Source of the DNA: a virus
DNA length: 24,295 bases
Virus record (IMG/VR): IMGVR_UViG_3300033992_000810
Span: 1 to 24,295 of that record
Direction: 5' to 3' (one strand)
Shown: positions 3,001 through 23,332 of the stretch, piece after piece
Numbering within the stretch: the first letter of the stretch is position 1
Layout of the letters: each line of letters begins with the position of its first letter
Notes under the pieces: model-generated
The model's database searches: none
Told to the model about the DNA's origin: nothing
The model's input: the letters and a program-made list of their open reading frames with translations, nothing else
Position numbers and translations under genes: made by a program

Positions 3001-3734
3001 ACGCCCTCGGCGAGTTGCTGACGGGCGAGGCGCTGGCGTCCGCCTTCGGTAAGCGGGGCGAGGGCGTCCTTGACCGCATTCACGGCCTTCCCGGCCCCGA
3101 TAGCCACGGGAGGCAAGACCGCGCCGATACCGGCGGCAAGCAGGCCGTCGGACTGCGCTTTCTCCAGCCTATTCTCTACGCCGCCCTCACCTTGGCCGAA
3201 CCCGGTAAGCGCCCCCATCGGGGCTGCGACGGTGGCGGACTTCAGGATTTTACCGCCAATCGTCGGGGCTCTAGCCGCCATCGCAGCCCCAGGCCCAAAG
3301 GACAGCATGGAGCCAGCAATTTGCGCACCAGTCGCCGCGACGGGGTTGCTTTGCTCGAACCCCTTATCGCGCGCGCGCTCTTGGGCTAGGGCCGCGTCAT
3401 AGCTTGGCGCGCTGGCGGTCGGGCCGATGCCGGTGAGTTGCGATGCGCCCGCCGAAAGCTCGTCGGCAAAACCGAAGGTAAGCGCGTTTGCGCCCTGGCG
3501 AACGAGGTTATCGATATACCGCAGCGGCCCGCCGCCCTTATTCGCCGTCGCCTCGGCGTTCACCTGGGCAGGCGTGGGGATGGCGGGGTCTTGCGAGCCG
3601 AGGCCGATGCGACCGTAGAAGTCGGCTTTCGGAATGTCGGCATAGAACTTGCTATGCAGGGCGTCCGCAAGCTGTTGGTCCGACATGTCGGCGTATTGCG
3701 GGTATTTTTGGCGGACTTCGGAAATCGTCGGCAT
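1..3734 (-). CDS. Giant Ala-rich coiled-coil virion protein, candidate DNA-ejection protein (partial, C-terminus outside window)
   Basis: The frame starts with ATG at 3734, touching the TAA of the gene upstream of it in the operon (TAAATG), and stays open for 1244 codons to the left edge. The N-terminus reads MPTISEVRQKYPQYADMSDQ, a short helical leader seen on large phage virion proteins, followed by a TFGFADELSAGASQLTG stretch (about residues 85-105). Next come Gly/Ala-rich hydrophobic segments (about residues 145-215) and then several hundred residues of Ala/Gln/Glu/Arg-rich helix likely to form coiled coil (for example DRLVAEAQARQASALSDAQQ near 2341-2400). A second Gly/Ala-rich stretch lies near 241-300 (LGLMLGKGGAAAGGA). 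No peptidase or lysozyme motif was recognised in the parts translated. Size, composition and its place last in a capsid-adaptor-nozzle operon resemble T7 gp16-type internal core proteins. The ejection role is inferred from position, not from a catalytic signature. Confidence 0.72.
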   Translation of the reverse strand, partial: MPTISEVRQKYPQYADMSDQQLADALHSKFYADIPKADFYGRIGLGSQDPAIPTPAQVNAEATANKGGGPLRYIDNLVRQGANALTFGFADELSAGASQLTGIGPTASAPSYDAALAQERARDKGFEQSNPVAATGAQIAGSMLSFGPGAAMAARAPTIGGKILKSATVAAPMGALTGFGQGEGGVENRLEKAQSDGLLAAGIGAVLPPVAIGAGKAVNAVKDALAPLTEGGRQRLARQQLAEGVTGVKTKADEFQPAVQKAIENIDAAQAQAQQINEPLGYLEGIAENVMGRGLIRAGDQWIDPVTKQVAVKPYQPTTGVAIGTPNALGAEQKARLQAPDQFIARDAQNNEALTAYLRTLDSGDPAVAQRAIGEIGQAKIAEAENAASLARAEAEAAAQLRGDVRVEGAGRVLLAEGRADKLNALGDQRLANARQLATDMTGAGDRLVAEAQARQASALSDAQQGLSSARAAASQAEADALAQRSDARLTAANQLAAARGEKKAAQQGAQAMLDADTARAARELEARQAEATAAQSRVSGVAEGLIQDSSRPTLSASDALLKTIKARDEQTREQSNKLYDALKPYSKEIVRGSEKLSNLVRSMRNDFLQMPEIFDKVQMLAKYTPGQEGGKARLNNLMKQVDDPELLLIARRLMENETVPVPFTAGELKIIAQVSGKIERQFRYSADKRDVAFRAGELAAKAKEALSGPGASDNVRQTYRNASSFYAAERMPFRDGVTGKLLSGDVAESNALNAYIRPNSATGGIGGKEAAQEMIKVAGRAAAERAAIDHFAQMAKDKATAGAKGDTLSPQAIRELIRDYSNFLSEFPAVRNTLEAMRSELAVVKGNLDAATASVKAAPRGPMPETTAKAKGLVSEADARLERAVSGAAQTRVAADRQVEEARLSARGMIDAARSPIEALRASTAVPDARAAAATAKSGASKIVADAQGQAKQYQAYGADRLRTEKTRASAATKMADDYLSQMKASLAAAEKTAQKAPGEWAKSMPGFFADGGHPEATIKTILGKADAPERMRELMSAANAAGQDAVDGVKQAVTDHILKEASQTSRFTSASGKQIGELKLSASAIEDLIGKSKKFRATMEKIYSPDEMRRLDTLHEQVSRIQKLGNRATSGSPTAENAGRMLSADNILGLMLGKGGAAAGGAIGGVSIYAQDYKTTAATGLVALTAWKTRAGRQQIQEIVNRALVEPDLAQIMLSKAIEENARKAVSLFDKIAKRAPNVGLA

Positions 3735-4967
3735 TTATCGAATCCCCAGCGGATCGGCGGGAGATGCAGCGGGCGCGGGACTATTGCGCGGCCCCATATC
3801 GAGCCCGGTTAAGGTATAAAGCTGGTCTTTATCCGCCCCGGCTTTCGCCATAGCATCGACCCGGCGGCGAATGGCCTGTTCAACAAGCACCGCTTGACGG
3901 TTTAGGTTCTGCTGTATTTGGTCAGGGTTCATTCCCGGCTGCACCGAGGACCGATTAAACTGATCTTGCTCGGCTTTGGTTAACGCCGAACCGAAAAGCT
4001 GATTGCGGACAAGATTGATGGTGCCTTGGTAATCCTGCCACCATTGCGACTGACCAGAGTTATCGCCGAAAGTCCGTCCGATCCAGTTGGCCGCGTCGCC
4101 CGTGAAAGGCTGCCCACCGTAATCAGGCTTGAAAGTTTCAGCCAAACGGCTCCAGCTTGCGCGCGTATCGCCCATATCGGCGAGTTGCTTTTGAACGGCG
4201 GCGGCTACGGGCTTCCCTGGCTGCTTCCCCATCACGGGCTGCCCGGTCGCCTTGTCCATCATCGGCGAAAAGTCACCGGTGCGCTTATTCACCATCATCA
4301 TGCCGTTCTGTGTCTCTACCGGCGCGAAGCTCTCACCGCCGCCACTCGTCGCGCGAAGGCGTGCCGCCTGAACCGTGGCGTTCGCCCGCATCTGGTCGCC
4401 GCGCAATCCAGCGTCGATCTTCTGCTGATCGAGCGCGCGCGCAATGTCGAGTTCGGCGCTGCTCACAGCCTGATTGACGCCAACGGGCTTGCCGGTGGCG
4501 ACCGCGAATGTCCGCATCCGGCTATCGTTCGGCTGGGGGGCCATCGCTTCGGCGTTGATGTACATTTGCGCCAGATCGTCCGGTTTTACCCCGGCAAGAA
4601 CGGCCTCCCAGGGCGACGGGCGCGACAGGTTAGGGTCCGGGGGGCCGACGGAATCGGGCGACTGCTGCCAATCAACCGCAATGTTCTTCTGCAAGAAATT
4701 CTGAAGCGCGGTGCGTTGCTGCTGGGCTTGGTCGAAAGCCGCCTGCTTCATTCCGGCCTCGGCCTGGGCCTGCGTCGTCTGCGCCTTCACAAGATCGGTC
4801 CGCGCCCCGTAAAGGTCGCGCTCCATCTGCATTCGGCGCTGATCGTTCACGTCGGGCTGCGAGGCAAGCCATGCCCCCACTGCCGATGCAATGCCGCTGC
4901 CCCAAGGGTCGCCGCCCCCGGCAGGCTTCGGCGGGCCAGCAAGGCCAAGAAACTGCTTTACCGACAT
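3735..4967 (-). CDS. Gln/Ala-rich virion protein, candidate internal (ejection) protein, 410 aa
   Basis: The protein begins MSVKQFLGLAG. The frame extends to an ATG at 4988, but the start at 4967 is preferred because a strong GGAGGGG lies 6 bases before it (minus strand, 4980-4974); the upstream ATG would overlap the preceding gene. The N-terminal third is Gly/Pro then Gln/Ala-rich helix (about residues 45-95, many AQ pairs). The middle holds a low-complexity MMMVNKRTGDFSPMMD segment. The C-terminal part (about 285-385) is a helical block with LTKAEQDQFNRSSVQPGMNP, which I associate with structural proteins of podovirus tails and internal cores. No signal peptide or membrane helix is seen. 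It sits directly before the giant coiled-coil gene, the position of gp15 in T7-like order. The exact role is unknown. Confidence 0.75.
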   Translation of the reverse strand: MSVKQFLGLAGPPKPAGGGDPWGSGIASAVGAWLASQPDVNDQRRMQMERDLYGARTDLVKAQTTQAQAEAGMKQAAFDQAQQQRTALQNFLQKNIAVDWQQSPDSVGPPDPNLSRPSPWEAVLAGVKPDDLAQMYINAEAMAPQPNDSRMRTFAVATGKPVGVNQAVSSAELDIARALDQQKIDAGLRGDQMRANATVQAARLRATSGGGESFAPVETQNGMMMVNKRTGDFSPMMDKATGQPVMGKQPGKPVAAAVQKQLADMGDTRASWSRLAETFKPDYGGQPFTGDAANWIGRTFGDNSGQSQWWQDYQGTINLVRNQLFGSALTKAEQDQFNRSSVQPGMNPDQIQQNLNRQAVLVEQAIRRRVDAMAKAGADKDQLYTLTGLDMGPRNSPAPAASPADPLGIR

Positions 4968-9442: not shown

Positions 9443-10483
9443 TTAAGCGATGCGGAAAACGGCGCAGCCGGAAAGCTGCCAAGCCGTCAAAGCGCCGGTC
9501 CACGTCATCGCCTTGTACATGACGTATTTTTCCGGCGGGCGGGCGGGGGCGTGCTTTTTCCAGTCTTCGCCCGTCATCGCGTAAAGCTGAATGGCGTTCT
9601 TCAGGTCGAGCGAGAAGCAATACTTATCCATGCCCAATTCATCGAGCGTCGGTTCGTACTGGATTTCGATGCCCTTGAAGTACAGGTCGCCCATGCCGCT
9701 ATCCTGCTTCCCTTGGAAGCCGGTTTGCGTATAGGTGCCCTTCACTCGGCGTTCGCGCTGGTAGGCTTCGATGAACTTCGACCCGGCGAACATATCAGTC
9801 GGCTTGCCCTGGTAACGCCGCTGCTGAAGCCACGTCACTTCCATCGTTTCGGTCAGCGGTTGATCGGGGGCGGTTGCCAGGGTCGCCACAACGGCGGGCG
9901 GCGCGCGGTTGCGCCAGAACGGATAGGTTGCGCGGTTCAGGCCGCCCGTTACCCCCACGGCGGGCGTGGTCGTCACCATCGACAGGATGCCCGGCGGCGA
10001 TTTCGGGTCCGCCGTCCCATCCGACCACAGCGTGCGGTTAAAATCGCGCATCATGCCTTGCAGCATGTCGTAAGTCTTATCGGTCAGAAGATCGGTAATC
10101 TCGACCTTCTCAGTTTCCGAATGCTTCGAGGTGTTTGCGCCGCTCGTGCTGTCAACGATGCTGATACCGGCCTTTTTAAGCTCGGTCAGCGTTACGTTGA
10201 TACCGCCGTGGCCTTCCTTCCACGTAAAGGAAGGTTGAAGCAGGCTGGTGGGGTTAACATAAGTCGCGGTGTCGTCGTGGGTATACCACTGCATCGTCGT
10301 GGTGTAGCTGCCGCGAATATTCTTCTTAATTTCGCCGCGCCCGCCAGGGAAGGTTTTTTGCCGTTTCGTCAGGGCATCGACCAGCAAGTAATCTTGCTTG
10401 ATCTGGTCAAAGGCGTCGCCTTTCAGATAGAAATCCAGAACGGCGTTTTGAATATTGGTCAGTTCGGCAGCAGTGAACGGCAT
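9443..10483 (-). CDS. Major capsid protein (HK97-fold type), 346 aa
   Basis: This is the main shell subunit. ATG at 10483 has AGGAGG (minus strand 10496-10491) 7 bases upstream. Features typical of the podovirus and siphovirus major head protein group include MQWYTHDDTATY (about 64-75, N-arm/E-loop region), TDLLTDKTYDMLQGMMRDFN (130-149, the long spine helix), LWSDGTADPKSPPGILSMV (152-170) and GGLNRATYPFWRN (180-192), the last two being a signature I recognise in these capsid proteins. A P-domain-like segment PTDMFAGSKFIEAYQRERR follows. Length fits an unprocessed capsid protein without a fused delta domain. The separate scaffold gene sits immediately upstream in the operon, as expected. Confidence 0.88.
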   Translation of the reverse strand: MPFTAAELTNIQNAVLDFYLKGDAFDQIKQDYLLVDALTKRQKTFPGGRGEIKKNIRGSYTTTMQWYTHDDTATYVNPTSLLQPSFTWKEGHGGINVTLTELKKAGISIVDSTSGANTSKHSETEKVEITDLLTDKTYDMLQGMMRDFNRTLWSDGTADPKSPPGILSMVTTTPAVGVTGGLNRATYPFWRNRAPPAVVATLATAPDQPLTETMEVTWLQQRRYQGKPTDMFAGSKFIEAYQRERRVKGTYTQTGFQGKQDSGMGDLYFKGIEIQYEPTLDELGMDKYCFSLDLKNAIQLYAMTGEDWKKHAPARPPEKYVMYKAMTWTGALTAWQLSGCAVFRIA

Positions 10484-10494
10484 CGTTCAGCCTC

Positions 10495-11394
10495 CTAATT
10501 CGCTTGCAACGCGAGGTTGACGGCCTCAAGTGCGGATTTCGGGCGCGGCGAGGTAACACCCGTCCGCGTGGGGGAAGGCGCTGCCGGGGTTGCCGGGCGC
10601 GGAACTTTCGGGAATTTGCCGCGCACGAAGGCGTCGGCATCGTTCAGCATTTTCAGCAGATCGGCGGCGGTCGTCGGCGGGTTGGAGCCAACGCGGGCCT
10701 GAACCACTTCCTTAACCAGATCAAGCCGGGCGCTAAATTCCGGGTCGCTGGCGGCCTTCTGCTTTTCCCAGGAATCGGCGGTTCCCAGCATTTGCGATTG
10801 GAAACGCTGGGTTTCGGCCTGGGCGCGCTGCTGTTCTTGGGCCTGCAAGCGCTGTTCGGCGGTTTGGCCGCCCGCAAGCTGCTTTGCAAGCTGCTGGGCC
10901 AGTTCTGGCACGATCTGCCCTTCGTCAACGGCCTGCTGCAAAAATGGCGGCAGAACCTCGCCCGCCGCCGTTTCCAGACTTTCCACCAGCGGCTTGAGCA
11001 TCGCCAGGGCTTTGGCCGGGTCGCCGCTCTTAATCGCCGTCATCACATCGACGCCCAAGCGCAAATCATCGCCGGTCAAGCCGCGCTGGGTCAGCGCCTC
11101 ATTGAACTGCTGAAGCTCTTGGTGCGCCGCGCGCCATTCCTGCTGTTCGGGGGCAAGCTCCAGGGCGGCCTCGGCCTCGGGTTGCGCAGGCTCAACGGGC
11201 GGCGCTTCCGGCGTCTCAGTTGAGGTTTCCTCAAGCGCGGCGTTCACGGCGTCGAGCGGCGTTTGCGGGGCTGCCGGGGCAGACTCGCCATCCAAAACCG
11301 CGTTCACCGTCGCCGCAATACTGCCCTCGGCTGGCTCTTGAGCCTGGGGCTCCGGGGCCTCTACCGGCGCTTGATTAGGGTCATCTTGTGGCAT
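10495..11394 (-). CDS. Capsid scaffolding protein, 299 aa
   Basis: This is the first gene of the leftward operon, directly before the capsid gene. The composition is that of a phage scaffold: Pro/Glu/Ala-rich disordered N-terminal 75 residues, a helical, Gln/Ala-rich, coiled-coil-prone core (about 80-235), and a basic Pro-rich C-terminal segment (about 265-290). Short helix motifs recur: ATVNAVLDGE (28-37) and LDAVNAALEE (47-56) near the N-terminus, and LEAVNLALQA (289-298) at the very C-terminus, where scaffolds usually bind the coat protein. The ribosome site AGGTG (minus strand 11407-11403) is 8 bases before the ATG and lies inside the divergent inverted repeat. The scaffold role is inferred from context and composition, since these proteins share little sequence. 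Confidence 0.85.
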   Translation of the reverse strand: MPQDDPNQAPVEAPEPQAQEPAEGSIAATVNAVLDGESAPAAPQTPLDAVNAALEETSTETPEAPPVEPAQPEAEAALELAPEQQEWRAAHQELQQFNEALTQRGLTGDDLRLGVDVMTAIKSGDPAKALAMLKPLVESLETAAGEVLPPFLQQAVDEGQIVPELAQQLAKQLAGGQTAEQRLQAQEQQRAQAETQRFQSQMLGTADSWEKQKAASDPEFSARLDLVKEVVQARVGSNPPTTAADLLKMLNDADAFVRGKFPKVPRPATPAAPSPTRTGVTSPRPKSALEAVNLALQAN

Positions 11395-11408
11395 AAGAAC
11401 AACACCTG

Positions 11409-11437
11409 TTGCAAAATAGATGTTATATTCGTACTAT
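11409..11437 (+). promoter_or_regulatory. Candidate sigma70-type promoter for the rightward operon
   Basis: TTGCAA (11409-11414, 4/6 to TTGACA), a 17-bp spacer, then TACTAT (11432-11437, 4/6 to TATAAT). This would start RNA near 11444, leaving a leader of about 27 bases that contains the AGGTG ribosome site. Spacing is ideal but both hexamers are imperfect, so an activator bound to the inverted repeat may be needed. Confidence 0.5.
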
Positions 11438-11456
11438 GCTCGCATCATATTTGCAA
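11428..11456 (-). promoter_or_regulatory. Candidate promoter for the leftward (scaffold/capsid) operon
   Basis: Mirror image of the rightward promoter: TTGCAA on the minus strand (11456-11451), 17-bp spacer, then TACGAA (11433-11428, 3/6). The -10 would share two base pairs with the rightward -10, so one polymerase would exclude the other. A better-looking -10, TATAAC (minus strand 11427-11422, 5/6), lies nearby but lacks a well-spaced -35. The exact choice is uncertain. Confidence 0.35.
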
Positions 11457-11470
11457 TAGGTGCGATAAAA

Positions 11471-12211
11471 ATGCCGCATCCGGCCCCCGTGACGCAGCAA
11501 TTCTCTTTCGAGCGGTTTGGCAACACCAACCCGAATACGCCGTTGCCTGGGCAAAAGGTCGATGCCGAGTTCGCGGCGGTCCGCAAGACCGTCAATGAAA
11601 CCGGCGAGCGATTGAAATTAATTCAAGCCGACGATGGGCAGGTTGCGCGCGGTGCAATCGGCATGGACCAGATGCGCGGCGGGGTGATCGATGCGCTGCT
11701 GCTGCGCATGGTCGAACGCATTGAAAACGGTCAGGGCAAGGTTCTACGGCTCGTTTATGTGTTCAGCGAATTGGCCGATGGGGTCAAAAGCACCTTCACC
11801 CTCAGCCGTCCGCTGCCCAGCGCCCGGCAAGCCGTCGTCACGGTGGCGGGCGCGGTTCAAACCGAAGGCAGTTTCCTTGTTTCCGGCATGACCAGCCTCG
11901 TGTTCCCGGGGCCGGTTCCCAGCGGGCAAATTGTCGAGGTCCGCTATTTCGATGGCGATATTCCGCTAGACCGCTTCACTGGCGACGGCGTGAAAAGCGC
12001 GTTCCAGCTTTCGCGGGCATTGCCCGATGCGCCTTGGGGCTGGGTTTCGGTCTCGGGCGTCACCCAGCACGTCGAGGCCTATTCGATTGTCGGGCGCGAA
12101 TTGCGCTTTGTCTCGCCGCCTCCCGCCGATGTGCCGGTTGAGGTGCGCTACTTCTGGGATTTGCCGCTGCCCGCTTCGGTCATCATCGAAGCCGAATGCT
12201 GCGAGTGCTAA
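11471..12211 (+). CDS. Tail fibre / tail appendage protein with two beta-repeat units, 246 aa
   Basis: ATG at 11471 is chosen over an in-frame ATG at 11420 because the latter would lie inside the promoter; AGGTG (11458-11462) is 8 bases upstream. The N-terminus (residues 10-66) holds FSFERFGNTNPNTPLPG, then VDAEFAAVRKTVNET and LIQADDGQVARGAIGMDQ, a pattern I recognise in N-terminal, probably virion-attaching, domains of podovirus fibre proteins. Two copies of an approximately 57-residue beta unit follow (103-160 and 172-228), each starting DGVKS.F.LSR.LP and ending VRYF, a repeat common in fibre shafts. The protein ends with an unusual Cys cluster, AECCEC. It is first in the operon. Confidence 0.78.
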   Translation: MPHPAPVTQQFSFERFGNTNPNTPLPGQKVDAEFAAVRKTVNETGERLKLIQADDGQVARGAIGMDQMRGGVIDALLLRMVERIENGQGKVLRLVYVFSELADGVKSTFTLSRPLPSARQAVVTVAGAVQTEGSFLVSGMTSLVFPGPVPSGQIVEVRYFDGDIPLDRFTGDGVKSAFQLSRALPDAPWGWVSVSGVTQHVEAYSIVGRELRFVSPPPADVPVEVRYFWDLPLPASVIIEAECCEC

Positions 12212-12736: not shown

Positions 12737-13930
12737 ATGCCAACCCCATCGATCAACGACGGTCTAACCCGCGTCCTCCTCAGCCATACCGCGCTCGACG
12801 GGACGGTTATCATCGGCATGACGCGCCCGCTTCTGGGCAGCGCGGCGCTAAAGGGAATCGGGGATTTTCTTCAGCGCGCGCTCAACCTGTCGGACGTGCC
12901 CGATAAACCAACGGCGCGCACCAATTTAGGGCTTGGCACGGCAGCAACGCATAATGTTGGCCCGCACCTCACGCGCGGCCCTGGCCTTCCAGCGGAAGTG
13001 GTCCTATTCCGTCACCTTGGCAGTGCTGCTTTTTCAAATGTCGATGAAATCATCGCCCTGGTGCCGCCGGTCAAGGAAACCTTCATTTCCTTAAACGACA
13101 CGCCGGATGTATACGCCGGGACCGCCACGGCGGGCGCGCTGCTATTCAGCAAGGACAACCAAATCGCCTATACCCAAGGCGCGGGTACGGCCACTTGGGA
13201 CGGCGATCAGCTTGGCGTCAACAATGGCTCGGTCGGCGCGAATAGTGGCGACGGGCTTTTCGTGCTCTACGCCGGGACCGGTACGCAAAACTTCCAAACC
13301 GCCATTGAAAGCAGCGGGCCGCTCGCGGGTGCTTCAGGCAAATTCTTTATCCGCTGCGCCAATAGCGTCCCCGCGCCCGGCGATGGCGGCACGCTCGCTT
13401 TCAGCGTCGATATGCTCGGCAATGTCATGGCAATCAATACCACCATTGCGGCTGCCGACTTTGCCGAATGGATGGAAGCGGCGGGTGATCTTGGTGTGGG
13501 CTATCCGGTTGTCGTGGGTAGTGATGGGCTCGTGCGCGTCGCCACGGCCAGCGATGACCCCGCCAAAATCAAGGGCGTCACGCGCCCCAGGAATACGCGC
13601 GGCGCGATCATCGGCAACGCCGATCTTGGCTATTGGTCCAAGAAATATGTGACCGACGATTTTGGCGAGCCGATTCTAGTGCCCGCGACCGTGCAACAGC
13701 CGGTTAACGGGAACCCGAACATTACCCAAAGCGTCGAAATCGAAACCTGGGCGATCAACCCGGATTACGACGCCAGCCTACCGTATGTGCCGCGTGCCGA
13801 ACGCCCCGAATGGAACTTGATCGGCCTCTTAGGTCAAATCCAGGTGCGCGTCGGCCAGCCGGTTCATCCGAACTGGTGCAAGCTGCGCTCGATTAGCGCG
13901 CAGGCCGATCTTTATCTGGTGATCCGCTAA
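12737..13930 (+). CDS. Tail fibre/spike with C-terminal self-cleaving chaperone domain (peptidase G2-like), 397 aa
   Basis: The N-terminal part (residues 42-74) repeats the GDFL.RA.NLSDV/NLGLGTAATH module of the preceding gene. The middle (about 125-230) is Gly/Ser/Thr-rich and beta-like, with TGTQNFQTAIESSG and FSVDMLGNVMAI, typical of appendage trunk ends. The last 160 residues match the pattern of the peptidase G2 / intramolecular chaperone domain: DFAEWMEAAGDLGVGYPVVV (about 240-259), KIKGVTRP, then YDASLPYVPRAERPEWNLIG and LLGQIQVRVGQ. In phi29-like appendages this domain trimerises the fibre and cuts itself off. The cleavage residue cannot be assigned by eye. The stop overlaps the terminase start by one base (TAATG). 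Confidence 0.8.
   Translation: MPTPSINDGLTRVLLSHTALDGTVIIGMTRPLLGSAALKGIGDFLQRALNLSDVPDKPTARTNLGLGTAATHNVGPHLTRGPGLPAEVVLFRHLGSAAFSNVDEIIALVPPVKETFISLNDTPDVYAGTATAGALLFSKDNQIAYTQGAGTATWDGDQLGVNNGSVGANSGDGLFVLYAGTGTQNFQTAIESSGPLAGASGKFFIRCANSVPAPGDGGTLAFSVDMLGNVMAINTTIAAADFAEWMEAAGDLGVGYPVVVGSDGLVRVATASDDPAKIKGVTRPRNTRGAIIGNADLGYWSKKYVTDDFGEPILVPATVQQPVNGNPNITQSVEIETWAINPDYDASLPYVPRAERPEWNLIGLLGQIQVRVGQPVHPNWCKLRSISAQADLYLVIR
12860..12958 (+). repeat. Paralogous fibre module, copy 2
   Basis: Residues 42-74 of the chaperone-ended fibre. Identical at 25 of 33 residues to the module at 12305-12403; similarity extends weakly to both sides (GMTRPLLGSAAL against GMTYPPVGTAAF upstream, and an LG..AF..VD pattern downstream). 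Confidence 0.75.
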
Positions 13931-15528
13931 TGGGCCGCCCGCTGAAATCGGAGCAAGAGAAGGCGACCGCTGCGGCGGCGGCGCAGGAAGCGCGCATGCG
14001 GCTGGTGCTTGAGCACGCCCATGTCGGCATGCAGGCGCGGGGTGATCTGCTGCGCTTTGCCGAATATATGCGCCCCGACCGGGAAGACCCGGACAATCCC
14101 CATAAGACCCGCTATGAAATCGCGCCGCATCACAAGCTGCTCGCCGATGTGTTGATGGATGTTGAGGCGGGCCGCAAAACGCGGGTTATCGTCACCATGC
14201 CGCCGCGCCACGGCAAGAGCGAGCTTACAACGCGCCTGCTGCCCGCGTGGTTTATGGGCCGCAACCCCCATAAGCAGGTGATTGTCGGGGCCTATAACGA
14301 AGAAAAAGCGCGCGATTTTGGCCGCGACGTGCTGGCGCTGTTCAAGGAAAAATCCTTCGGCGTTGTCTTCCCGCACTTCCAGCTAAACCCATCGGCAAAG
14401 GCCGCCGACCATATCCGCACCACGGACGGCGGCGAAATGCTGTTCGCCGGTCTCGGCGGGTCGGCCACTGGCTATGGTGCCGATTTGCTGGTGATTGACG
14501 ATCCGATCAAAAGCCGGGAAGAGGCCGACAGCGAAACCAATCGGGAGAAGGTCTGGAACTGGTTTCTCGACGTTGCCGATACGCGCCTTATGCCGGGCGG
14601 GGCGGTTATCATCGTCCTTACGCGCTGGCACGAGGATGATCTTGTCGGTCGCATCCTGAACCCCGCCTATGTGCCTGAGGATTTGGCGGCAGGCTGGCAT
14701 GTGGTCAATCTCCCGGCGCTCGCCGAAGCAGGCGATCCGCTGGGGCGGGGGATCGGCACGCCGCTATGGCCGAAATGGTACGATTTCGAGCGCCTGGACG
14801 GTATCCGCCGCACCAATCCGCGTGGCTTTATCTCGCTCTACCAGCAGCGCCCCGCGCCGGAGGAAGGCGCGTACTTCCGCAAGGAAATGGTTAAAACCTA
14901 CGGGCGGGATCACCTGCCCAAGCGCTTGCGCTATTATGGCGTGTCCGACCATGCCGTCACCAAAGACCCGCAGCGCGACGCCTCGTGCTTCATCGTGTTC
15001 GGCGTCGATGAGCGTGACGACGTTTGGATCGTTGATTGCTGGTGGGGCCGGGAAGAGGCGCTACAAGCGTCCGAACGGATGCTTGGGCTCATTAAGCGCT
15101 GGAATCCCCTACGCTGGTTCCCGGCTGACGATAACATCTTCAAAACCTTCCGCCCGTTCCTCGATAAACGCATGCGCGAAGAGGATGCGTGGTGCGTGGT
15201 CGATCCGATCCGCGAAGGCAAGGATATTGAGGCGCGCGCCCAAGCCATTCATGGGCGTATGGACCAAGGCCGCGTGCGCTTCCCGCAGGGCGAGCCGTGG
15301 CTTGCCGATGCTATCGGTGAAATCATGGCCTTCCCGAACGCCAAGCACGATGATTTCGTCGCGGCCCTGTCGCTGATCGGTCTTGCCTTGGGGCAAATTA
15401 TCCGCTCGTCGCGCCCGGCCAACACCAATAACGAGCCGCCGCCGGTCGGGTCGATCCATTGGACCATATGGGCCGCAAAGCGCGAAGAAGCCGCTAAAAC
15501 GCGCGGGGTGATGCGATGGACGGCATAA
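13930..15528 (+). CDS. terL: Terminase large subunit (DNA-packaging ATPase and nuclease), 532 aa
   Basis: The motor docks on the portal, pumps DNA into the procapsid using ATP and cuts the concatemer. Visible motifs: Walker A MPPRHGKS (residues 90-97), Walker B LLVIDD (186-191), coupling motif LTRWHEDDL (230-238), and an RNase H-like nuclease domain with YGVSDHAVTKD (first acidic residue D340) and KHDDFVAAL (D474/D475). Length is normal for the family. The N-terminal 30 residues are an Ala/Glu-rich helix. The start overlaps the stop of the fibre gene by one base, and the end overlaps the portal gene by 13 bases, so terminase and portal are translationally linked. No small terminase was recognised anywhere in the window. 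Confidence 0.96.
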   Translation: MGRPLKSEQEKATAAAAAQEARMRLVLEHAHVGMQARGDLLRFAEYMRPDREDPDNPHKTRYEIAPHHKLLADVLMDVEAGRKTRVIVTMPPRHGKSELTTRLLPAWFMGRNPHKQVIVGAYNEEKARDFGRDVLALFKEKSFGVVFPHFQLNPSAKAADHIRTTDGGEMLFAGLGGSATGYGADLLVIDDPIKSREEADSETNREKVWNWFLDVADTRLMPGGAVIIVLTRWHEDDLVGRILNPAYVPEDLAAGWHVVNLPALAEAGDPLGRGIGTPLWPKWYDFERLDGIRRTNPRGFISLYQQRPAPEEGAYFRKEMVKTYGRDHLPKRLRYYGVSDHAVTKDPQRDASCFIVFGVDERDDVWIVDCWWGREEALQASERMLGLIKRWNPLRWFPADDNIFKTFRPFLDKRMREEDAWCVVDPIREGKDIEARAQAIHGRMDQGRVRFPQGEPWLADAIGEIMAFPNAKHDDFVAALSLIGLALGQIIRSSRPANTNNEPPPVGSIHWTIWAAKREEAAKTRGVMRWTA

Positions 15529-17540
15529 CCCCAACCCCCAACGAAACCGCCGTCAAAAAGCGCCTTGCCGATATTAAGTCGGCGGAAAAGCACTTCGAGA
15601 AATCGTTCAAGCAAATGCTGGACGATCAAGCCTTTGCGCGCGGCAAACAGTGGGAAGGCGAAACCCAGCTTTACCGGGTCAATATGGTGCTGCGCCAAAT
15701 TCACGAGCGCACGGCAGCCCTCTACGCGAAGAACCCAAAGGTCGCGGTTTCCCGGCAGCCGAAGATGGATACGATCACCTGGGACGGTGAGGCCAGCAGT
15801 TTGCAGGAAGCCAAGCAGCGCGCGGCAGAAAATGCGGCGCTGAACTACCCGCCCGATCCGATGGATCAAGCCTTGCTGTCCGAGGCCGAACAGGTGTTCT
15901 TGCGACGCAAGGCGCTTGATCGTGTGGCGCGGTCCCTGCTGATCGTCCAAAATTATCACCTCGATAACACCTACCCGCAGTTCAAGGATAACGCCAAGCG
16001 CGCCGTGCAAACGGTGCAAACCTGCGGCGTCGGCTACTGCAAAATCAGCTTCCACCGCCCCGGCGAAGTTCGCCCCGAACCCGATGCGGTCTTGGGGGAT
16101 GCGCCCGAACGCGCCGCGATTCTGGAAGGTTTGCCCGACGACGCGGACGCCGACGAAACCCAGGCCGAACAAAACAGCCTGTCAGCCTCCTTTGAAGGCG
16201 ATGGCGGGTTTGTTGAGCCGGAAGGGCTAATTTACACTTGGCCGTCGCCGACCGCGATTATCCCCGATCCGAAAACCCGCTGCCTGCAAGGCTGGCAGGG
16301 CACGCGCTGGGTCGCGGAAAAATTCTACCTGACCAAGAACGAGATTAAGGGGATCTATGGCGTCGATTTGGAAGCGGGCGAGTTCGCCAGCTATTCCTAC
16401 AGCCAGATCGACGGCAAGCCGACCTACAGCGAAAACGATAAGCAGATCGATGGCGACCATGCGACCGCCTGCGTTTACGAGGTATGGGACCGGCAGCGCG
16501 GCACGGTCGAAACGGTGTGCGAGGGCTACCGCGATTACCTGCGCGCGCCTGCCGCCCCCTTGCGGGTCGAAGGTTTTTTCCCGTACCGCGCGCTGACCTT
16601 CAACGACATTGTTGACGATCACCACATCTTCCCGCCGTCCGACGTAACCCTGCTGCGCGATATGCAGCGCGACATCAACGAATCGCGCCAGGGCGTGCGC
16701 GAGCACCGCTATGCAAATCGCCCCCGGCAGATCGTGGCGACGGGCGCGTTTGACGAAGAAGAGGAAAAGCGCCTCGCAGGCGCGGGCGTCCATGACGTTA
16801 TCCCCGTCAAAATCGCCCAAGGCGCGAAGATTGCGGATATTATCCAGTCCTTCCCGAACGTGCCGATCACGCGCGAGCTTTACGATACGAGCACGGCAGA
16901 GGTCGATATTGGCCGCGCTGTCGGCTCCCAACAGGCCAATATCGGCCCTGTGACGGGCGCGACGGCAACCGAAGTAGGCGTGGCCGAAAGCAGCCGCCAA
17001 ACCTCTATCGGCTCGCAGATGGATGCGCTCGACCAATTCTTAGGCGCGGTCATGCGCGCGAGCGGTCAACTGCTGCTGCGCTATATGTCCCCGGATCGGG
17101 CGCGCGAGATTGCCGGGCCGGGCGCAAGTTGGCCGGAATGGGACGCCGAAACCATCGTCGCCGATCTGCAACTCTCGATCAAATCGGGCTCAAGCGGCAT
17201 GCCGAACCAAACGGCCAAGGCCGCCGCAATTGAGCGGCTGATGCCCTTTGCGCTGCAAATCGGCGGGCTGAACACGACCAAGCTTGCCGAAATCGTTGGC
17301 GAGGGTATCGCGCCCGATGTGGACCTCGCCGAATTGATCGACCCCGGCACCCCGTCAGTCATCGCCCAAAACGCCCTGTTTAACGCGGGTGCGGCGCTCT
17401 CAGCCGGAAATTCCGCAGGCTCTACCGCCGACAAAAACCCCGCCGCCCAAGGCTCTGCGGGCGGAAGCAACGCCCCACGCGGGGCCGGTCGCCCCGGCGG
17501 CCCGCAACCCGCCATGCCCGCCCCGATGGAAGGATTATAA
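15516..17540 (+). CDS. Portal protein, 674 aa
   Basis: It forms the dodecameric ring at one capsid vertex through which DNA enters and leaves. The N-terminal helical region (residues 1-60) has LADIKSAEKHFEKSFKQMLD and ALYAKNPKVAVSRQP, as in large podovirus portals. The stem region includes LLRDMQRDINESRQGVREH and a basic YANRPRQIV segment (about 400). The crown-side helices carry GATATEVGVAESSRQTSIGS and ALDQFLGAVMRASGQLLLRY (about 480-530). An acidic insert with DDADADETQAEQ lies near residues 208-220. The last 55 residues are low-complexity Gly/Pro/Ala/Asn and probably disordered. The gene starts inside the end of terL. Scaffold and capsid, its usual neighbours, are on the opposite strand. 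Confidence 0.92.
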   Translation: MDGITPTPNETAVKKRLADIKSAEKHFEKSFKQMLDDQAFARGKQWEGETQLYRVNMVLRQIHERTAALYAKNPKVAVSRQPKMDTITWDGEASSLQEAKQRAAENAALNYPPDPMDQALLSEAEQVFLRRKALDRVARSLLIVQNYHLDNTYPQFKDNAKRAVQTVQTCGVGYCKISFHRPGEVRPEPDAVLGDAPERAAILEGLPDDADADETQAEQNSLSASFEGDGGFVEPEGLIYTWPSPTAIIPDPKTRCLQGWQGTRWVAEKFYLTKNEIKGIYGVDLEAGEFASYSYSQIDGKPTYSENDKQIDGDHATACVYEVWDRQRGTVETVCEGYRDYLRAPAAPLRVEGFFPYRALTFNDIVDDHHIFPPSDVTLLRDMQRDINESRQGVREHRYANRPRQIVATGAFDEEEEKRLAGAGVHDVIPVKIAQGAKIADIIQSFPNVPITRELYDTSTAEVDIGRAVGSQQANIGPVTGATATEVGVAESSRQTSIGSQMDALDQFLGAVMRASGQLLLRYMSPDRAREIAGPGASWPEWDAETIVADLQLSIKSGSSGMPNQTAKAAAIERLMPFALQIGGLNTTKLAEIVGEGIAPDVDLAELIDPGTPSVIAQNALFNAGAALSAGNSAGSTADKNPAAQGSAGGSNAPRGAGRPGGPQPAMPAPMEGL

Positions 17541-17543: not shown

Positions 17544-19181
17544 ATGGCCGCCACCAATCTCTTTCACGTTCAAAAGTCCACCGTTCGTAGCAATGGCGAG
17601 ATGCTGGCGCTCCAGTCGCAGGATTTGGGCGATGAATGCATCGTTGAAACGCGCGATTCTGCCGATAATGTGACCGGCCAGAAGAATTATAAGCTCATCG
17701 CTCTGCCGTCGTCGCTTATCTCAAACTGGCAGCAGGTCGGCGGCGACGGTTACTCGCCGGGCAGTGGTGGCGGCGGTAGCGCGTCCTGGCCGGTTCCGGG
17801 CACGCCTGCAACCTTTCCGCCTGAAGCGCATCGTCACGTTTGGGGCGATTTAGACTCAATCCCAGGTCTGCTCACCGCCGTTGCTGCCCTTAGCGGGAAT
17901 GGCGTCATCGAGAAGACCGGGGCTGCGACGGTCGCCACGATTACGACCAGCATTTTCGGTAAAACGCTGCTTGGCATGGCCGATGCGGCGGCCTTGCGGG
18001 CAACGCTCGGCGTTTCATCGTCGGCGGAATCGCTGCTGAAGGCGAATAACCTTTCCGATCTGACGAACGTTACGGCGGCGCGCACGGCCCTGGGTCTTGG
18101 GACCGCGGCGGTTCTCAATACGACCGGCGTTGGGAGCGTGGTTCAGCGCGGCGCTGACCTGAAAATTCCGCTGTCCGATCTTCCGGCCCTGGTGTTCGGC
18201 AGCACTTACGACGCCTCGTCGCAGGCAGAAATGTTGGCGCTGTCGGCGGTCAAGGGCGACGTGTGCCGCCGCCTGGACACGAACGAAACCTATTATCTCA
18301 GCGCCACGCCCGCCAGCACGCTTGCCAATTGGAAGCTCGTGCTGGTCCCGCTCACGTCTTCGATCACAACCGTTTTCGGACAAAGCGGGCCGGATGTGAC
18401 GATTTCCGGCCTTGCGACTTTGGTTGGGGCGATTGACGACGCCGATCAACTGATTGTGTTCGATCAATCCTCCGGCACGCACCGCCGCGTTACCCGCGCC
18501 AACTTCCTGAACGGTATCGGCGCGGTTCTGGCAGTTGCGGGGGATGGTGCCAAGGGTATCGCCGTCAGCACGGCCAGCGGCACGGCGACCGTGGGGCTCA
18601 AAACCGATGGTTTGCCGTCGCTGGTCGCTGACTTTGGCTCGAGCAGCGCTAACTTCCTTGTGGCGAAGGCGGATGGAACGCCGGGGCAAATTACGGCAAA
18701 TGCCCTGTTCCCGGCGCTTCCGGCGCGGGCAACGCCTGCGGATACCGATATTGTCGCCACCAGCACGGCAGCCGGGGCGCTCGGCAAAACCACACTGGCC
18801 GAACTGCTGACCGGGCGCACGATCACCCGTCCGCGCCTTGTCGATCAGACCGAAGCCAAGCAGGTGCGGGTGGATGTTTCTGGTTCCTACACCCTGCCGA
18901 CTGGGGTGAATACCCATCATATCCGCCTCACCAACAACGCCACCGTCACGCTTGCGGACGTGCGCCCGGCGGCGGCGGGAACGTGGCGCGGGCAAACGCT
19001 GATTGTCGATCAGGACGGTACAGGCGGGCGCACGCTCACCCTACAAGCCCCCGCCGGGCAAACGCTCGAATGGACCGGCGGCAGCCCCCCGGCCCTCAAT
19101 AGCGCCACCAATGGCCGTACCCGCTACGTGTTCACCTATGACGGCGGTGAAGCACGCATCGACGGCATTAAGAGCTTCTAA
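17544..19181 (+). CDS. Tail fibre protein, 545 aa
   Basis: ATG at 17544 has GGAAGGA (17528-17534) upstream, overlapping the end of the portal gene. The N-terminal 65 residues form a distinct domain, followed by a Gly/Ser linker (SPGSGGGGS, 71-79). Residues 91-120 hold FPPEAHRHVWGDLDSIPGL, a turn-rich segment common in phage fibres. A NLSD module is at 165-193 (LLKANNLSDLTNVTAARTAL then GLGTAA). The block near 217-270 (YDASSQAEMLALSAVKGDV, then ASTLANWKLVL) is another widespread fibre motif. The C-terminal 120 residues are beta-rich with GRTLTLQAPAGQTLEWTGG. No chaperone or enzyme motif is visible. Confidence 0.8.
   Translation: MAATNLFHVQKSTVRSNGEMLALQSQDLGDECIVETRDSADNVTGQKNYKLIALPSSLISNWQQVGGDGYSPGSGGGGSASWPVPGTPATFPPEAHRHVWGDLDSIPGLLTAVAALSGNGVIEKTGAATVATITTSIFGKTLLGMADAAALRATLGVSSSAESLLKANNLSDLTNVTAARTALGLGTAAVLNTTGVGSVVQRGADLKIPLSDLPALVFGSTYDASSQAEMLALSAVKGDVCRRLDTNETYYLSATPASTLANWKLVLVPLTSSITTVFGQSGPDVTISGLATLVGAIDDADQLIVFDQSSGTHRRVTRANFLNGIGAVLAVAGDGAKGIAVSTASGTATVGLKTDGLPSLVADFGSSSANFLVAKADGTPGQITANALFPALPARATPADTDIVATSTAAGALGKTTLAELLTGRTITRPRLVDQTEAKQVRVDVSGSYTLPTGVNTHHIRLTNNATVTLADVRPAAAGTWRGQTLIVDQDGTGGRTLTLQAPAGQTLEWTGGSPPALNSATNGRTRYVFTYDGGEARIDGIKSF
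18036..18122 (+). repeat. Third, more diverged copy of the NLSD / GLGTAA fibre module
   Basis: Encodes residues 165-193 of the fibre at 17544-19181. It keeps LL.ANNLSD, then AR..LGLGTAA as at 12314-12400, but lacks the following HDV/HNV. It links this fibre to the two fibre genes upstream of terminase. Confidence 0.6.
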
Positions 19182-19191
19182 GGAAACGGCG

Positions 19192-20151
19192 ATGCAGATT
19201 GCAACCCGCATTCAGGGCGTGACAGGAGGGGGCAGCCTTGATTGGCGCGCCGTCACTGCGCCCGTGCCCGCCAACTGGTCCCATATCGACTATGGCAATG
19301 GGCGGTGGGTCGCAATCGGCAATGGGGCTCCCAGCGGCTATTCAGGCCTCGCGGCTACATCGACGGACAATGGCGAGGCCTGGACCTATACGTCGCTCCC
19401 TATCCCGAGTTTCCCTGTGCTCTGCTTTAAATTTTTCAGCAAAGTAGGGCTGTTTATCGGCATGGGCGCGTCAGTGTTCTGGACGACCGCCGATGGGGTC
19501 AATTTCAACTGGTACAGCGGGCCAGCGGCGACAGGCGGCGGCAACTCGTGGCAGGCGCTCGGGGAGTTCGCTAACCGGCTTTGCGCGCTGTCGTCCTATA
19601 GCTCGACCGGCACATTAGACGGTTTTTCGTGGTCGGCGGTCGGCGGCGTTTCTAGCGTCGCGGCCCCCAGCGGCACACAAATCGCCTGCGGCCCTAGCGT
19701 TGCCATGTCGGCGCGGTCAAGCAACCAGTATCTGCGCACGTCGGACGGTATCGGGTGGGGGCTCGTCAGCGCGGCGACCGGAAGTTTCGCTGAGGCCGAT
19801 TACGGCCTCGGGGCCTTCTTCGCCACCGGCACCACGGCGGGGCAATTCTGGAAATCGACCGACGCGGGCATATCGTCTTGGTCCCTCATCACCGCGCCGG
19901 AAAGCTACGGCATCGTCGCAAAAATTAAGGCGAACGCGAATGCGGTTGTTGCTGTGGGCAGGCCCGTAAGCGCCGCCGTTAAGGCCGCCGTTTCGCTTGA
20001 TGGGAACCTGTTTGCGATGACTGGCCCGCTGCTGAGTGGGCACGGCATCAGCGGCCTGTCGGCCAACGGGCGCCGGTTCATCGGCGTCGGCTACGCTGGG
20101 GCGACGCCGCCCTATTGGAGCAATTCGTTCCATATTCTCGATATTCCGTAA
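19192..20151 (+). CDS. Asp-box beta-propeller adhesin-like protein, 319 aa
   Basis: ATG at 19192 has AAGGAAA after the previous stop. A longer frame begins at 19003 but would lie inside the fibre gene, so it is rejected. The protein starts with MQIATRIQ, repeated at the start of the next gene. The body shows about six Asp-box turns of sialidase-type propellers: STDNGEAW (57-64, a perfect SxDxGxxW), TADGVNFNW (99-107), TLDGFSW (141-147), TSDGIGW (183-189), STDAGISSW (222-230) and SLDGNLF (268-274). Strands between them carry repeated GNGRWVAIG / GRRFIGVG cores. Sialidase catalytic residues were not recognised, so a binding rather than cutting role is likely. It is probably a virion surface protein. 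Confidence 0.7.
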   Translation: MQIATRIQGVTGGGSLDWRAVTAPVPANWSHIDYGNGRWVAIGNGAPSGYSGLAATSTDNGEAWTYTSLPIPSFPVLCFKFFSKVGLFIGMGASVFWTTADGVNFNWYSGPAATGGGNSWQALGEFANRLCALSSYSSTGTLDGFSWSAVGGVSSVAAPSGTQIACGPSVAMSARSSNQYLRTSDGIGWGLVSAATGSFAEADYGLGAFFATGTTAGQFWKSTDAGISSWSLITAPESYGIVAKIKANANAVVAVGRPVSAAVKAAVSLDGNLFAMTGPLLSGHGISGLSANGRRFIGVGYAGATPPYWSNSFHILDIP

Positions 20152-20163
20152 GGGCGCGCCATG
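20149..20163 (+). promoter_or_regulatory. Stop / ribosome site / start junction 1 of the adhesin run
   Basis: TAA, then GGGCGCGCC, then ATG. The stop and start are in the same reading frame, and the AAGGG ribosome site overlaps the stop. It matches the junction at 21058-21072 in 7 of 9 linker bases. Confidence 0.75.
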
Positions 20164-21060
20164 CAAATCGCAACCCGCATTCAGCCTTCCGCCGTATCGC
20201 CCGTCGCCTGGGTCACAACCTCGCCGCTTACCGGCGCGGCGTGGGCGGATTATTACGAGGTGGCGCTGACGGCGACGGGCGCGAGCGCTTACGCCGTGCA
20301 GTCCGGGGCTCTTCCGCCGGGGCTGGCAATTGTCGCCGATAAAATCAGCGGCACGCCGTCGCCCAATCCTGATGCGCCGCTGTGGGTTACAGCCACCGGC
20401 AGTCTTGGGAGTGGCGCTCAAGGCAGTAGCTTCTCGGCCTATATTTCGGCTACGGGGGCCGATAGCTACACGGTTCGATCTGGCCTGTTGCCCTGGGGCG
20501 TCATTCTCGATCCGGCGACGGGCTTAATCTCCGGCGATTTTGCCCTGATCGGCGGCGCGGAAGACAGCCCCGGCCCGGCACCGACATGGACCACGGCGGC
20601 GGGCAGTCTCGGGACGCTCAACGAAAGCGCCGTTGCGTCGCTATCCATCGCCGCGACCGGGGCCGCGTCCTACGCTATCGAGGCGGGGGGGCTGCCCTGG
20701 GGGCTGCTGCTCAACCGCGACACGGGAGCGATTACAGGCACGACGGCTGAGGTCGGCGGCGGCGCAACCCCGGAACCGCCGAACACGATCACATGGTCAG
20801 CCCCGGCGTCAACGAACCTAGGCAGCTTCGCCGTGGGCGCATCGGTGAGCATCGCGCAGACAATCGGCCCTGTCACGGGCGTTTTCATGGTCTCTTCCGG
20901 CGTTATGCCTTGGGGGCTGTCAGTCGCACGCAATGGTGGCCTTATCAGCGGTACGGTAGGAGCTACCAACGCAGCAGGCGCGTACTCGTTTACCGTTTTT
21001 GCCTTGAATCCCGGCGACGGCAGCTTCGGCTATCGCACCTACACCATCACGATCACCTAG
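20161..21060 (+). CDS. Ig-like repeat (putative Ig, He_PIG type) surface protein, 299 aa
   Basis: The product begins MQIATRIQ like the previous gene and then consists of four similar units (about 17-67, 75-128, 143-196 and 212-267). Each has the pattern W.T..GSLG, ATGA.SY.V.SG.LPWG and TG.ISG (examples SYTVRSGLLPWGVILD and SYAIEAGGLPWGLLLN). The G.LP.GL...TG.I.GT pattern is that of putative-Ig (He_PIG) domains on adhesins and phage surface proteins. The C-terminus YSFTVFALNPGDGSFGYRTY completes the last beta sandwich. No signal peptide is present, as expected for a virion part. It is in the same frame as both neighbours. Confidence 0.7.
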   Translation: MQIATRIQPSAVSPVAWVTTSPLTGAAWADYYEVALTATGASAYAVQSGALPPGLAIVADKISGTPSPNPDAPLWVTATGSLGSGAQGSSFSAYISATGADSYTVRSGLLPWGVILDPATGLISGDFALIGGAEDSPGPAPTWTTAAGSLGTLNESAVASLSIAATGAASYAIEAGGLPWGLLLNRDTGAITGTTAEVGGGATPEPPNTITWSAPASTNLGSFAVGASVSIAQTIGPVTGVFMVSSGVMPWGLSVARNGGLISGTVGATNAAGAYSFTVFALNPGDGSFGYRTYTITIT

Positions 21061-21072
21061 GGGCGCAACATG
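21058..21072 (+). promoter_or_regulatory. Stop / ribosome site / start junction 2 of the adhesin run
   Basis: TAG, then GGGCGCAAC, then ATG, with stop and start in the same frame. AGGGG overlaps the amber codon and would serve as ribosome site. Readthrough of the TAG would join the two proteins through a three-residue linker (Gly-Arg-Asn). Confidence 0.75.
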
Positions 21073-22050
21073 GCACTTACCTATAATTTCACGGCCCGCG
21101 CCACTAGCGCCCTAGGCGCTTCCGCAGACCGGGCGTTTTCGATCACCGTTAATAACTCGATCATTCAGCGACTCGTTGTTGTCAGCCAATCCGGCGCGGC
21201 GCGAGCGTTGACGGCGGGCGGAACTTGGGCCGCAATCCCCGGCGTCAAGGGCGATAGCGTTGCCTGGGGGGATCGTTGGCTGATTTGGGATCAGGTCGCG
21301 GGCGTCATGTGGCGGTCGCCGGATGCTATCAATTGGGCTAGCCTGACGCCGACCCTGCCGGGCGGCTACACGACCCTCAGCCACATGCGCTGGCGGGCTG
21401 GCGCATGGTGGGCCCTTGGCGGTGACGGCACCAATATCGGCGTGCTCACCAGCACAAACGGCGGCGCAACTTGGACGCTTGTGGGGGCGGCTCAATTGGG
21501 CGCTTTCGCCGCTAGTTTCGAGCGGACGGAGGGGGGCGCGTCGGTCATCGCCAACGGGTCCGATTGGTATTATCGGGCAACGGACGGCGGCGCGTGGGTC
21601 CCCGTGAAAACGTTCGGTGCGTCCGGCGCAAAATTCCAAATTGCCCACCTCAACGGCGTTTGGTTCGGGCCCTCCAGCAACGCCTCTTCTCCGGGGTTTG
21701 CACGTTCTGCCGATGGGTCTGCTTGGTTCGACCAAAGCAATGCATCGGTTCTGACGGCGGGCTATTATCGCGGGTTTGCCTACCTGAATGGCGCGGTGGT
21801 TGGGCACAGCTATTTCGATGCTTTGAGCGGTTACACGACGGATGCGGGTATCACCGTGTCCGCGACAAACGCGCTGCCCGCCGCTTCCGATGTGTTTAAT
21901 ACCGATAGCCCCATTGTCGCCCAGGCCGGGCGCGTTGCGATGATCGGCGATACCGGGCGGACTTTCGCGGTAATTGGAGCGACAGGCACTTGGACCGCGC
22001 AAACCATTCCTGGCGGGTGGCAGGCCACCAGCATTGCAGCGAGGAACTAG
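21070..22050 (+). CDS. Ig-strand plus Asp-box propeller adhesin-like protein, 326 aa
   Basis: Residues 1-30 (MALTYNFTARATSALGASAD, then RAFSITVNN) look like the last strands of an Ig/cadherin-like unit. A propeller with Asp-box-type turns follows: RSPDAINW (82-89), STNGGATW (128-135), ATDGGAW (170-176) and SADGSAW (213-219). Repeated W-rich strand cores (AWGDRWLIW, GAWWALGG, NGVWFG) separate the turns. It therefore combines domain types of the two genes before it and is probably a paralogue or rearranged form. No catalytic motif was recognised. A virion adhesin is the simplest reading. Confidence 0.7.
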   Translation: MALTYNFTARATSALGASADRAFSITVNNSIIQRLVVVSQSGAARALTAGGTWAAIPGVKGDSVAWGDRWLIWDQVAGVMWRSPDAINWASLTPTLPGGYTTLSHMRWRAGAWWALGGDGTNIGVLTSTNGGATWTLVGAAQLGAFAASFERTEGGASVIANGSDWYYRATDGGAWVPVKTFGASGAKFQIAHLNGVWFGPSSNASSPGFARSADGSAWFDQSNASVLTAGYYRGFAYLNGAVVGHSYFDALSGYTTDAGITVSATNALPAASDVFNTDSPIVAQAGRVAMIGDTGRTFAVIGATGTWTAQTIPGGWQATSIAARN

Positions 22051-22052
22051 GC

Positions 22053-22415
22053 ATGAGTGATGGATTGCAGACGATCCAGATTATGCTTGCCGACGCAGCG
22101 GCGTGGCGCGGGCGCATGGAAGATCGAATGGATGAGACGATAACGACGCTGCACACTGTAGCGGCATCGGTAGAGCGTTACGCCATGCAGTCAACCGCCA
22201 GCAATGCTTTGATGGAAGCAAGGCTAGACGCTATCACTAAAGGCAACGAACATGTCGAAGAGCGCCTTTCCGCTCTTGAAGGCGCGCGTCCCGGAGGCAA
22301 GAAGCCTGTCGCTGTGGCAGCGAGTGTTGGCGGTGGGGTTGGCTTCCTGAGCGCGCTGGCAAGCAGCGGCGCGATTGATTTTTTTGTTGCTGTCGGCAAA
22401 AGGATATTCCCATGA
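22053..22415 (+). CDS. Small coiled-coil membrane protein at the head of the lysis cassette, 120 aa
   Basis: ATG at 22053 (MSDGLQTIQ) has GAGG 8 bases upstream. A longer frame to 21990 would overlap the adhesin gene, so it is rejected. Residues 15-78 form an amphipathic helix rich in Met, Arg, Glu and Thr, likely coiled coil. Residues 80-84 are basic (PGGKK), followed by a hydrophobic Gly/Ala/Ser stretch (about 85-115) ending KRIFP, a probable C-terminal membrane anchor. The shape recalls small phage lysis-region proteins of the XhlA kind, but family membership is not shown. The stop overlaps the endopeptidase start as ATGA. Confidence 0.65.
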   Translation: MSDGLQTIQIMLADAAAWRGRMEDRMDETITTLHTVAASVERYAMQSTASNALMEARLDAITKGNEHVEERLSALEGARPGGKKPVAVAASVGGGVGFLSALASSGAIDFFVAVGKRIFP

Positions 22416-22789
22416 TCTTGACCGAGCGCGACCGCAGCCGACTGACCGGAGTAAACCCCGACTTGATCCGCGTGATCGAACACGCGGCGGCAATTACGAC
22501 CATCCCCTTCACGATTATTGAGGGCGTCCGCACGCTTGAGCGGCAGAAACAGCTTGTGAGGCAGGGGGCGAGTTGGACGCTCGATAGCCGCCACCTCACC
22601 GGCCATGCCGTCGACCTGACGCCTCTCGATAACGGCCAGCCTTCCTGGCATTGGCCCCTTTATCACCGCCTCGCCCCGATCATCAAACGCGCCGCCGAAC
22701 AAGTAGGTGTGCCGGTCGAATGGGGCGGCGATTGGAAGCGGCGCAAGGATGGGCCGCACTGGCAACTGCCCAATAATATTTACCCCTGA
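22412..22789 (+). CDS. Endolysin: peptidase M15 (L-alanyl-D-glutamate or DD-type peptidoglycan endopeptidase), 125 aa
   Basis: It cuts peptide cross-links or stems of peptidoglycan at lysis. The M15 zinc signature SxHxxGxAxD is complete as SRHLTGHAVD (residues 59-68), giving H61 and D68 as ligands. The third ligand is H116 in DGPHWQL, and D107 in WGGDW is the likely catalytic acid/base region. The EGVRTLERQKQLVRQG segment (37-52) is the usual substrate-cleft helix. Length is typical of single-domain T5-endolysin-like enzymes. No signal peptide or wall-binding domain is present, so export depends on the holin encoded 16 bases downstream. The peptide bond cut cannot be told from sequence. Confidence 0.93.
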   Translation: MILTERDRSRLTGVNPDLIRVIEHAAAITTIPFTIIEGVRTLERQKQLVRQGASWTLDSRHLTGHAVDLTPLDNGQPSWHWPLYHRLAPIIKRAAEQVGVPVEWGGDWKRRKDGPHWQLPNNIYP

Positions 22790-22805
22790 CCGAAAGGAAC
22801 TGACC

Positions 22806-22967: not shown

Positions 22968-22968
22968 C

Positions 22969-23323: not shown

Positions 23324-23332
23324 GGTAGAAAA

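Follow-up and report, generated by a model that had tools for sequence, protein, structure and literature searches.

Two copies of one start module, set head to head, may underlie a mirror-symmetric divergent start region in a phage contig

Two groups of virion genes diverge from one short gap in an unclassified virus record, and the start codons, ribosome sites and candidate promoter boxes on one side of this gap recur in reflection on the other. Does this symmetry exceed chance, and does it mark a regulatory switch, as the original prediction had it, or two copies of one late start? The window analysed here is the whole stretch of 24,295 nt (IMGVR_UViG_3300033992_000810, positions 1 to 24,295), and this 24.3-kb record is probably a fragment of a phage genome. 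The gene content of the 24-kb contig consists of virion and lysis genes. Leftward run scaffold-like, major capsid protein (MCP), tail-tube-like, stabilisation-like and injection-like genes, assigned by homology or position relative to the phages Mae-Yong1326-1 and RHph_N65, and rightward run a fibre-like gene, a Peptidase_G2 protein, the terminase large subunit (TerL), the portal, more appendage-like genes and an M15 peptidase. The genes that frame the question are as follows.

9443-10483, minus strand: MCP (phrog_9953, E=5e-45; 41% identity to the MCP of Mae-Yong1326-1)
10495-11394, minus strand: scaffold-like protein, heading the leftward capsid unit; it precedes the MCP, and in RHph_N65 and Mae-Yong1326-1 the gene lying between portal and MCP is a distant tblastn match
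11471-12211, plus strand: fibre/appendage-like protein, heading the rightward unit (phrog_21488, of unknown function; N-terminal homology to genes 5' of TerL in relatives)
13930-15528, plus strand: TerL (phrog_38, E=4e-106; Pfam Terminase_6N)
15516-17540, plus strand: portal protein (phrog_12082; Pfam P22_portal)

Homologues of the TerL, portal, scaffold, MCP, tail-tube and stabilisation genes of Mae-Yong1326-1 and RHph_N65-like phages are present in the window, with identities of 39-42% for TerL, 34-36% for the portal, 38-41% for the MCP and 31-41%, by segment, for the stabilisation-like protein of 689 aa. Among the genes from 17544 to 23953 almost nothing was matched in the related loci, the M15 peptidase being the sole exception. 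A protein with a Peptidase_G2 (intramolecular chaperone) domain at 12737-13930, located between the fibre-like genes and TerL, is probably a self-cleaving tail appendage.

The two units are separated by 76 bp, whose elements are listed below.

11395-11470, no strand: divergent intergenic region of 76 bp, 34% GC within a contig of 62% GC
11403-11422, minus strand: left arm, leader and Shine-Dalgarno (SD) copy of the scaffold unit; minus-strand sequence CATCTATTTTGCAACAGGTG
11443-11462, plus strand: right arm, leader and SD copy of the fibre-like/terminase/portal unit; CATCATATTTGCAATAGGTG
11409-11414, plus strand: TTGCAA palindrome, putative rightward -35
11451-11456, minus strand: TTGCAA palindrome, putative leftward -35
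11432-11437, plus strand: TACTAT, candidate rightward -10 with a predicted +1 A at 11444; promoter match at chance level
11428-11433, minus strand: TACGAA, candidate leftward -10 with a predicted +1 A at 11421 and no T at -7; promoter match at chance level
11421-11429, plus strand: TGTTATATT, alternative rightward extended -10, from the comparison of hexamers in the gap
11444-11449, minus strand: TATGAT, alternative leftward -10, from the same comparison

The geometry claimed originally was borne out in every part. The repeat was recovered independently, with coordinates read directly from the sequence, and its arms at 11403-11422 and 11443-11462 pair at 16 of 20 positions. Its centre at 11432.5 falls exactly midway between the ATGs at 11394 (minus strand) and 11471 (plus strand), AGGTG stands 8 nt from the ATG on both sides, TTGCAA occupies 11409-11414 and 11451-11456, and the candidate -10 hexamers TACTAT (plus) and TACGAA (minus) overlap at 11432-11433. 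The ATGs, AGGTG sites, TTGCAA boxes and proposed -10 hexamers are thus all mirrored exactly about 11432.5. The uninterrupted core of the arms matches at 12 of 13 positions (CACCTRTTGCAAA). When each start is read in the direction of its gene, the two sequences, TACTATGCTCGCATCATATTTGCAATAGGTGCGATAAAAATG and TACGAATATAACATCTATTTTGCAACAGGTGTTGTTCTTATG, share 25 of 42 positions, and the block common to both reads CATC...TTTGCAA.AGGTG........ATG.

The dyad is real and beyond chance, as shuffled sequences, a control set of divergent gaps and folding all indicate. A centred 16/20 never arose in 20,000 shuffles that preserved the dinucleotides of the whole gap, and when only the inner 50 bp were shuffled, with the SDs and their spacers held fixed, the centred dyad still had P=2.2e-4. 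A 20-mer common to the two half-gaps at 16/20 had P=0.001. As an empirical control, divergent gaps of 45-200 bp were roughly called across the window and the related loci; of the 36 obtained, the window's own scored 16/20 and the best of the 35 others 11/20. Single-strand folding likewise exceeded that of shuffles, with z-scores of -2.9 for DNA and -4.9 for RNA. In these respects the original proposal stands: two late (virion) units start divergently from the gap, and its symmetry is beyond chance.

The promoters proposed within it fared differently. The rightward TTGCAA-17-TACTAT fits the sigma-70 consensus at 8/12 positions and the leftward TTGCAA-17-TACGAA at 7/12, and shuffled gaps match or beat these scores in 79% and 99.8% of cases, respectively. 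Shuffled sequence of like composition does at least as well, and the proposed sigma-70 promoters are not evidence. Other hexamers in the gap fit equally well or better, namely TGTTATATT as a rightward extended -10 and TATGAT leftward, and a promoter-scanning tool reported none in the 76 bp. TTGCAA by itself shows no enrichment across the window either (5 observed, 7.4 expected).

The order of the two units is itself unusual. Relatives were sought by single-sequence scans with the MCP and scaffold, which covered viral contigs, genome contigs, a collection of phages and 385 genomes from a single class. The 187 loci compared are those with an MCP plus a portal or TerL (some loci share a contig). 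Terminase, portal, scaffold and capsid genes were co-directional in 187 of 187 of these loci and divergent in none, and an additional prophage had the same co-directional order. The window alone lacks the relatives' co-directional TerL-portal-scaffold-MCP order and has its scaffold/capsid and fibre-like/terminase/portal units head to head; since every relative is co-directional, the head-to-head layout is taken to be derived. The search returned no close relatives of the window, the best MCP identity being 50%, and no relative with the divergent order or the arms. The double arm had no match among the viral contigs searched, and in the distant relatives TTGCAA arms were not found beyond chance. 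A site-specific inversion between the arms was considered and rejected, as the arms lie 20 nt apart and flank no segment.

The relatives nevertheless have something to say about late starts in this group. Among 99 distinct portal-scaffold gaps, 16% contain sigma-70 matches of at least 10/12, mostly with 17-nt spacers, against 1.6% in shuffles. The promoter-like element before the relatives' scaffold gene has the form TTGAWW-17-TANAAT, for example TTGAAA-17-TAGAAT, and in many scaffold gaps a dyad, TGTTGA-N9-TCAACA (more fully TTGTTGA-N9-TCAACAA), covers the -35 and spacer. The comparison thereby also reveals a recurrent dyad promoter before the scaffold gene of many relatives, of which a limited literature search found no published description. 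The dyad element was seen in the portal-scaffold gap of loci L122 (5576-5596), L141, L147, L155, L160, L182, L193, L010 and others, usually as one copy per locus. Five further loci (L169, L184, L188, L207 and L236) have a portal-scaffold gap of only 31-39 nt, with an AT-rich, -10-like sequence near the ATG and no clear SD, which suggests from sequence that these very short scaffold leaders belong to short or leaderless mRNAs.

In three genomes (L010, L209 and L012) a copy of the scaffold element also precedes the fibre-like gene at the head of the TerL unit, at a distance of 40-60 nt. Copies before the fibre-like and scaffold genes were located at 3539-3560 and 8907-8927 in L010, at 1383-1406 in L209 and at 2589-2612 in L012. 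One element before both genes of a genome suggests that a late regulator may be shared by them. Across 19 genomes the fibre leader was closer to the scaffold leader of its own genome than to those of other genomes (permutation P=1e-5), an effect that comes mainly from a few genomes; compared with shuffled versions of a genome's own leaders, the within-genome similarity gave a Fisher P=6e-5, and without the three strongest genomes the signal was weak (P=0.045). For some relatives it is established that both units share a start element, and the data point only faintly to a general rule. When the window was scored with a profile built from the scaffold promoters of the relatives, the gap did not rise above background: the best score near the gap was 10.9 and that elsewhere 9.6, while the training sequences scored mostly 14-32. 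The window promoter is therefore no clear member of the relatives' type.

With moderate confidence, we favour the reading that the mirror repeat consists of two copies of one late start module, inverted relative to each other by rearrangement, and that the gap is most likely one compact bidirectional late promoter. The module would comprise an initiation region and a leader, CATCWWWTTTGCAAYAGGTG, followed by 8 nt and the ATG; one copy would drive the scaffold/capsid unit and the other the fibre-like/terminase/portal unit. In the relatives the two units lie in line, both preceded by a promoter-like leader of their own, and in some a genome-specific element is shared between the leaders. In the window phage a rearrangement would have set the units head to head, so that the common module shows as a reflection: the starts would look mirrored only because the units themselves are opposed. 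As the gap offers only 76 bp, both promoters would have to overlap largely within the dyad, and the two modules possibly form a small two-way promoter that RNA polymerase would enter in one orientation at a time. If both promoters are active, we infer that polymerase binding is likely to be exclusive. This origin is simpler than the switch first proposed and is consistent with the comparative data. Against it stand the facts that the relatives' element spans -35 to -10 whereas the strongest identity in the window is in the leader and SD, that the sequence of the window's module differs from that of the relatives, and that just one contig shows the head-to-head arrangement.

A model closer to the original prediction, and one that we consider possible if rather unlikely, assigns the symmetry to protein binding. 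The palindromic TTGCAA in each arm would bind a dimeric regulator of phage or host, and the two sites, separated by 42 bp (some four helical turns, on the same face), would flank both promoters and co-regulate the late units. TTGCAA is indeed palindromic in both arms, with centres at 11411.5 and 11453.5; P2-type late promoters offer a precedent in which one dyad serves terminase/portal and scaffold/capsid units (PMC3931495), and the TGTTGA-N9-TCAACA of the relatives' scaffold promoters is operator-like. However, that dyad differs from the window's in sequence and spacing, and the core of the arm includes the SD, which would be conserved without any need of a regulator. The consensus arm occurs at no other place in the window, and none occurs beyond chance in the relatives; no regulator gene was identified in this fragmentary contig. 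We are more doubtful still that the 76 bp act as a single palindromic element, both ribosome sites included, in which the choice made by polymerase, together with one regulator on two in-phase TTGCAA sites, would set the ratio of capsid/scaffold to packaging/fibre products through transcription and translation.

The symmetry might also act in RNA, which seems to us improbable. In any transcript reading through the gap, the arms would fold into a hairpin and conceal the downstream AGGTG; translation would then be confined to transcripts initiated in the gap, and the mirrored ribosome sites would shield the two units from antisense read-through. The predicted RNA fold is stable (-27.5 kcal/mol, z -4.9) and AGGTG pairs with CACCT in its stem. 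This opposition of CACCT and AGGTG is forced by the geometry, though, and mirrored SDs of any kind would pair; the same hairpin is predicted by a regulator site or a shared leader. We give equally little credence to an ordinary divergent spacer, with independent leaders and similar ribosome sites, whose likeness would be due to chance and the constraint on the SD. Such a spacer would explain why neither the promoter hexamers nor the number of TTGCAA boxes exceeds chance and why the SD makes up part of the arm, but not the centred dyad with SDs fixed (P=2e-4) or the standing of the window gap as an outlier among 36 divergent gaps. Least probable is an assembly or amplification chimera with its junction in or near the gap and an artefactual head-to-head order: the layout is unique against 187 related loci and rests on a single virus record, but the flanking genes are both complete with good ribosome sites, and the tetranucleotide distance between the contig halves (0.148) is typical of a single genome (within-genome median 0.161, 5-95% range 0.115-0.236; between-genome 5th percentile 0.188), a value that speaks against a join between two genomes and remains compatible with one inside a single genome.

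How, then, does the shared-module reading, with its two-way promoter, compare with known systems? By analogy, the PP/PO pair of P2, which separates terminase/portal from scaffold/capsid transcription, is the closest working analogue. The terminase/portal genes of P2 are P and Q, and its scaffold/capsid unit consists of O, N, M and further genes. P2 and Smp131 late promoters depend on Ogr and carry TGT-N12-ACA, and in Smp131 the late-promoter dyads of PP' and PO' fall on the same 18 bp of opposite strands (4398-4381 and 4381-4398; PMC3931495). As in P2-type phages, the terminase/portal and scaffold/capsid units of the window diverge from one gap; a fibre-like gene rather than the terminase adjoins the gap on the right. 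The window phage belongs to a family unrelated to that of P2, and its symmetric element is TTGCAA/AGGTG and not TGT-N12-ACA. A TGT-N12-ACA dyad common to both promoters is absent from the gap, the nearest match lying off the dyad centre and overlapping the scaffold start. This match, TGTGGCATAAGAACAACA at 11387-11404 beside the dyad, fits the P2 Ogr consensus and was rejected as an Ogr site, such matches being at chance level in the window (3 against 1.7 expected).

Bacterial bidirectional promoters, described by Warman, Grainger and colleagues, share the pseudo-symmetry of the window layout and have, as predicted for the window, overlapping -10 elements and exclusive polymerase binding (PMC10268837, PMC12825309). 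By definition their divergent start sites are separated by 7-25 bp, most often by 18, and their -10 elements overlap (PMC10268837); exclusion is slight at basal activity, and competition arises only with one direction strongly active (PMC12825309). The predicted starts of the window, 11421 and 11444, both A, are 23 bp apart and fall within 7-25 bp, although they derive from weak hexamers and the spacing departs from the usual 18 bp. Of the reciprocal -11A/-7T of bidirectional promoters, the rightward candidate has both and the leftward TACGAA has -11A but an A at -7. Like Mae-Yong1326-1 and RHph_N65-like phages, in some of which the element is repeated before the fibre-like gene, the window has a promoter-like leader directly before the scaffold gene; unlike these phages, with their co-directional units and TTGAWW-17-TANAAT enclosing the TGTTGA/TCAACA dyad, it does not carry that dyad. 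The window thus differs from P2-type and bidirectional promoters in the sequence hallmarks tested and resembles both in layout. If its head-to-head late promoter works, an unrelated phage group would have arrived independently at a counterpart of P2 PP/PO, through rearrangement of units kept in line by the relatives, and the promoter would offer a system for testing whether mutually exclusive initiation sets the ratio of scaffold/capsid to terminase/portal.
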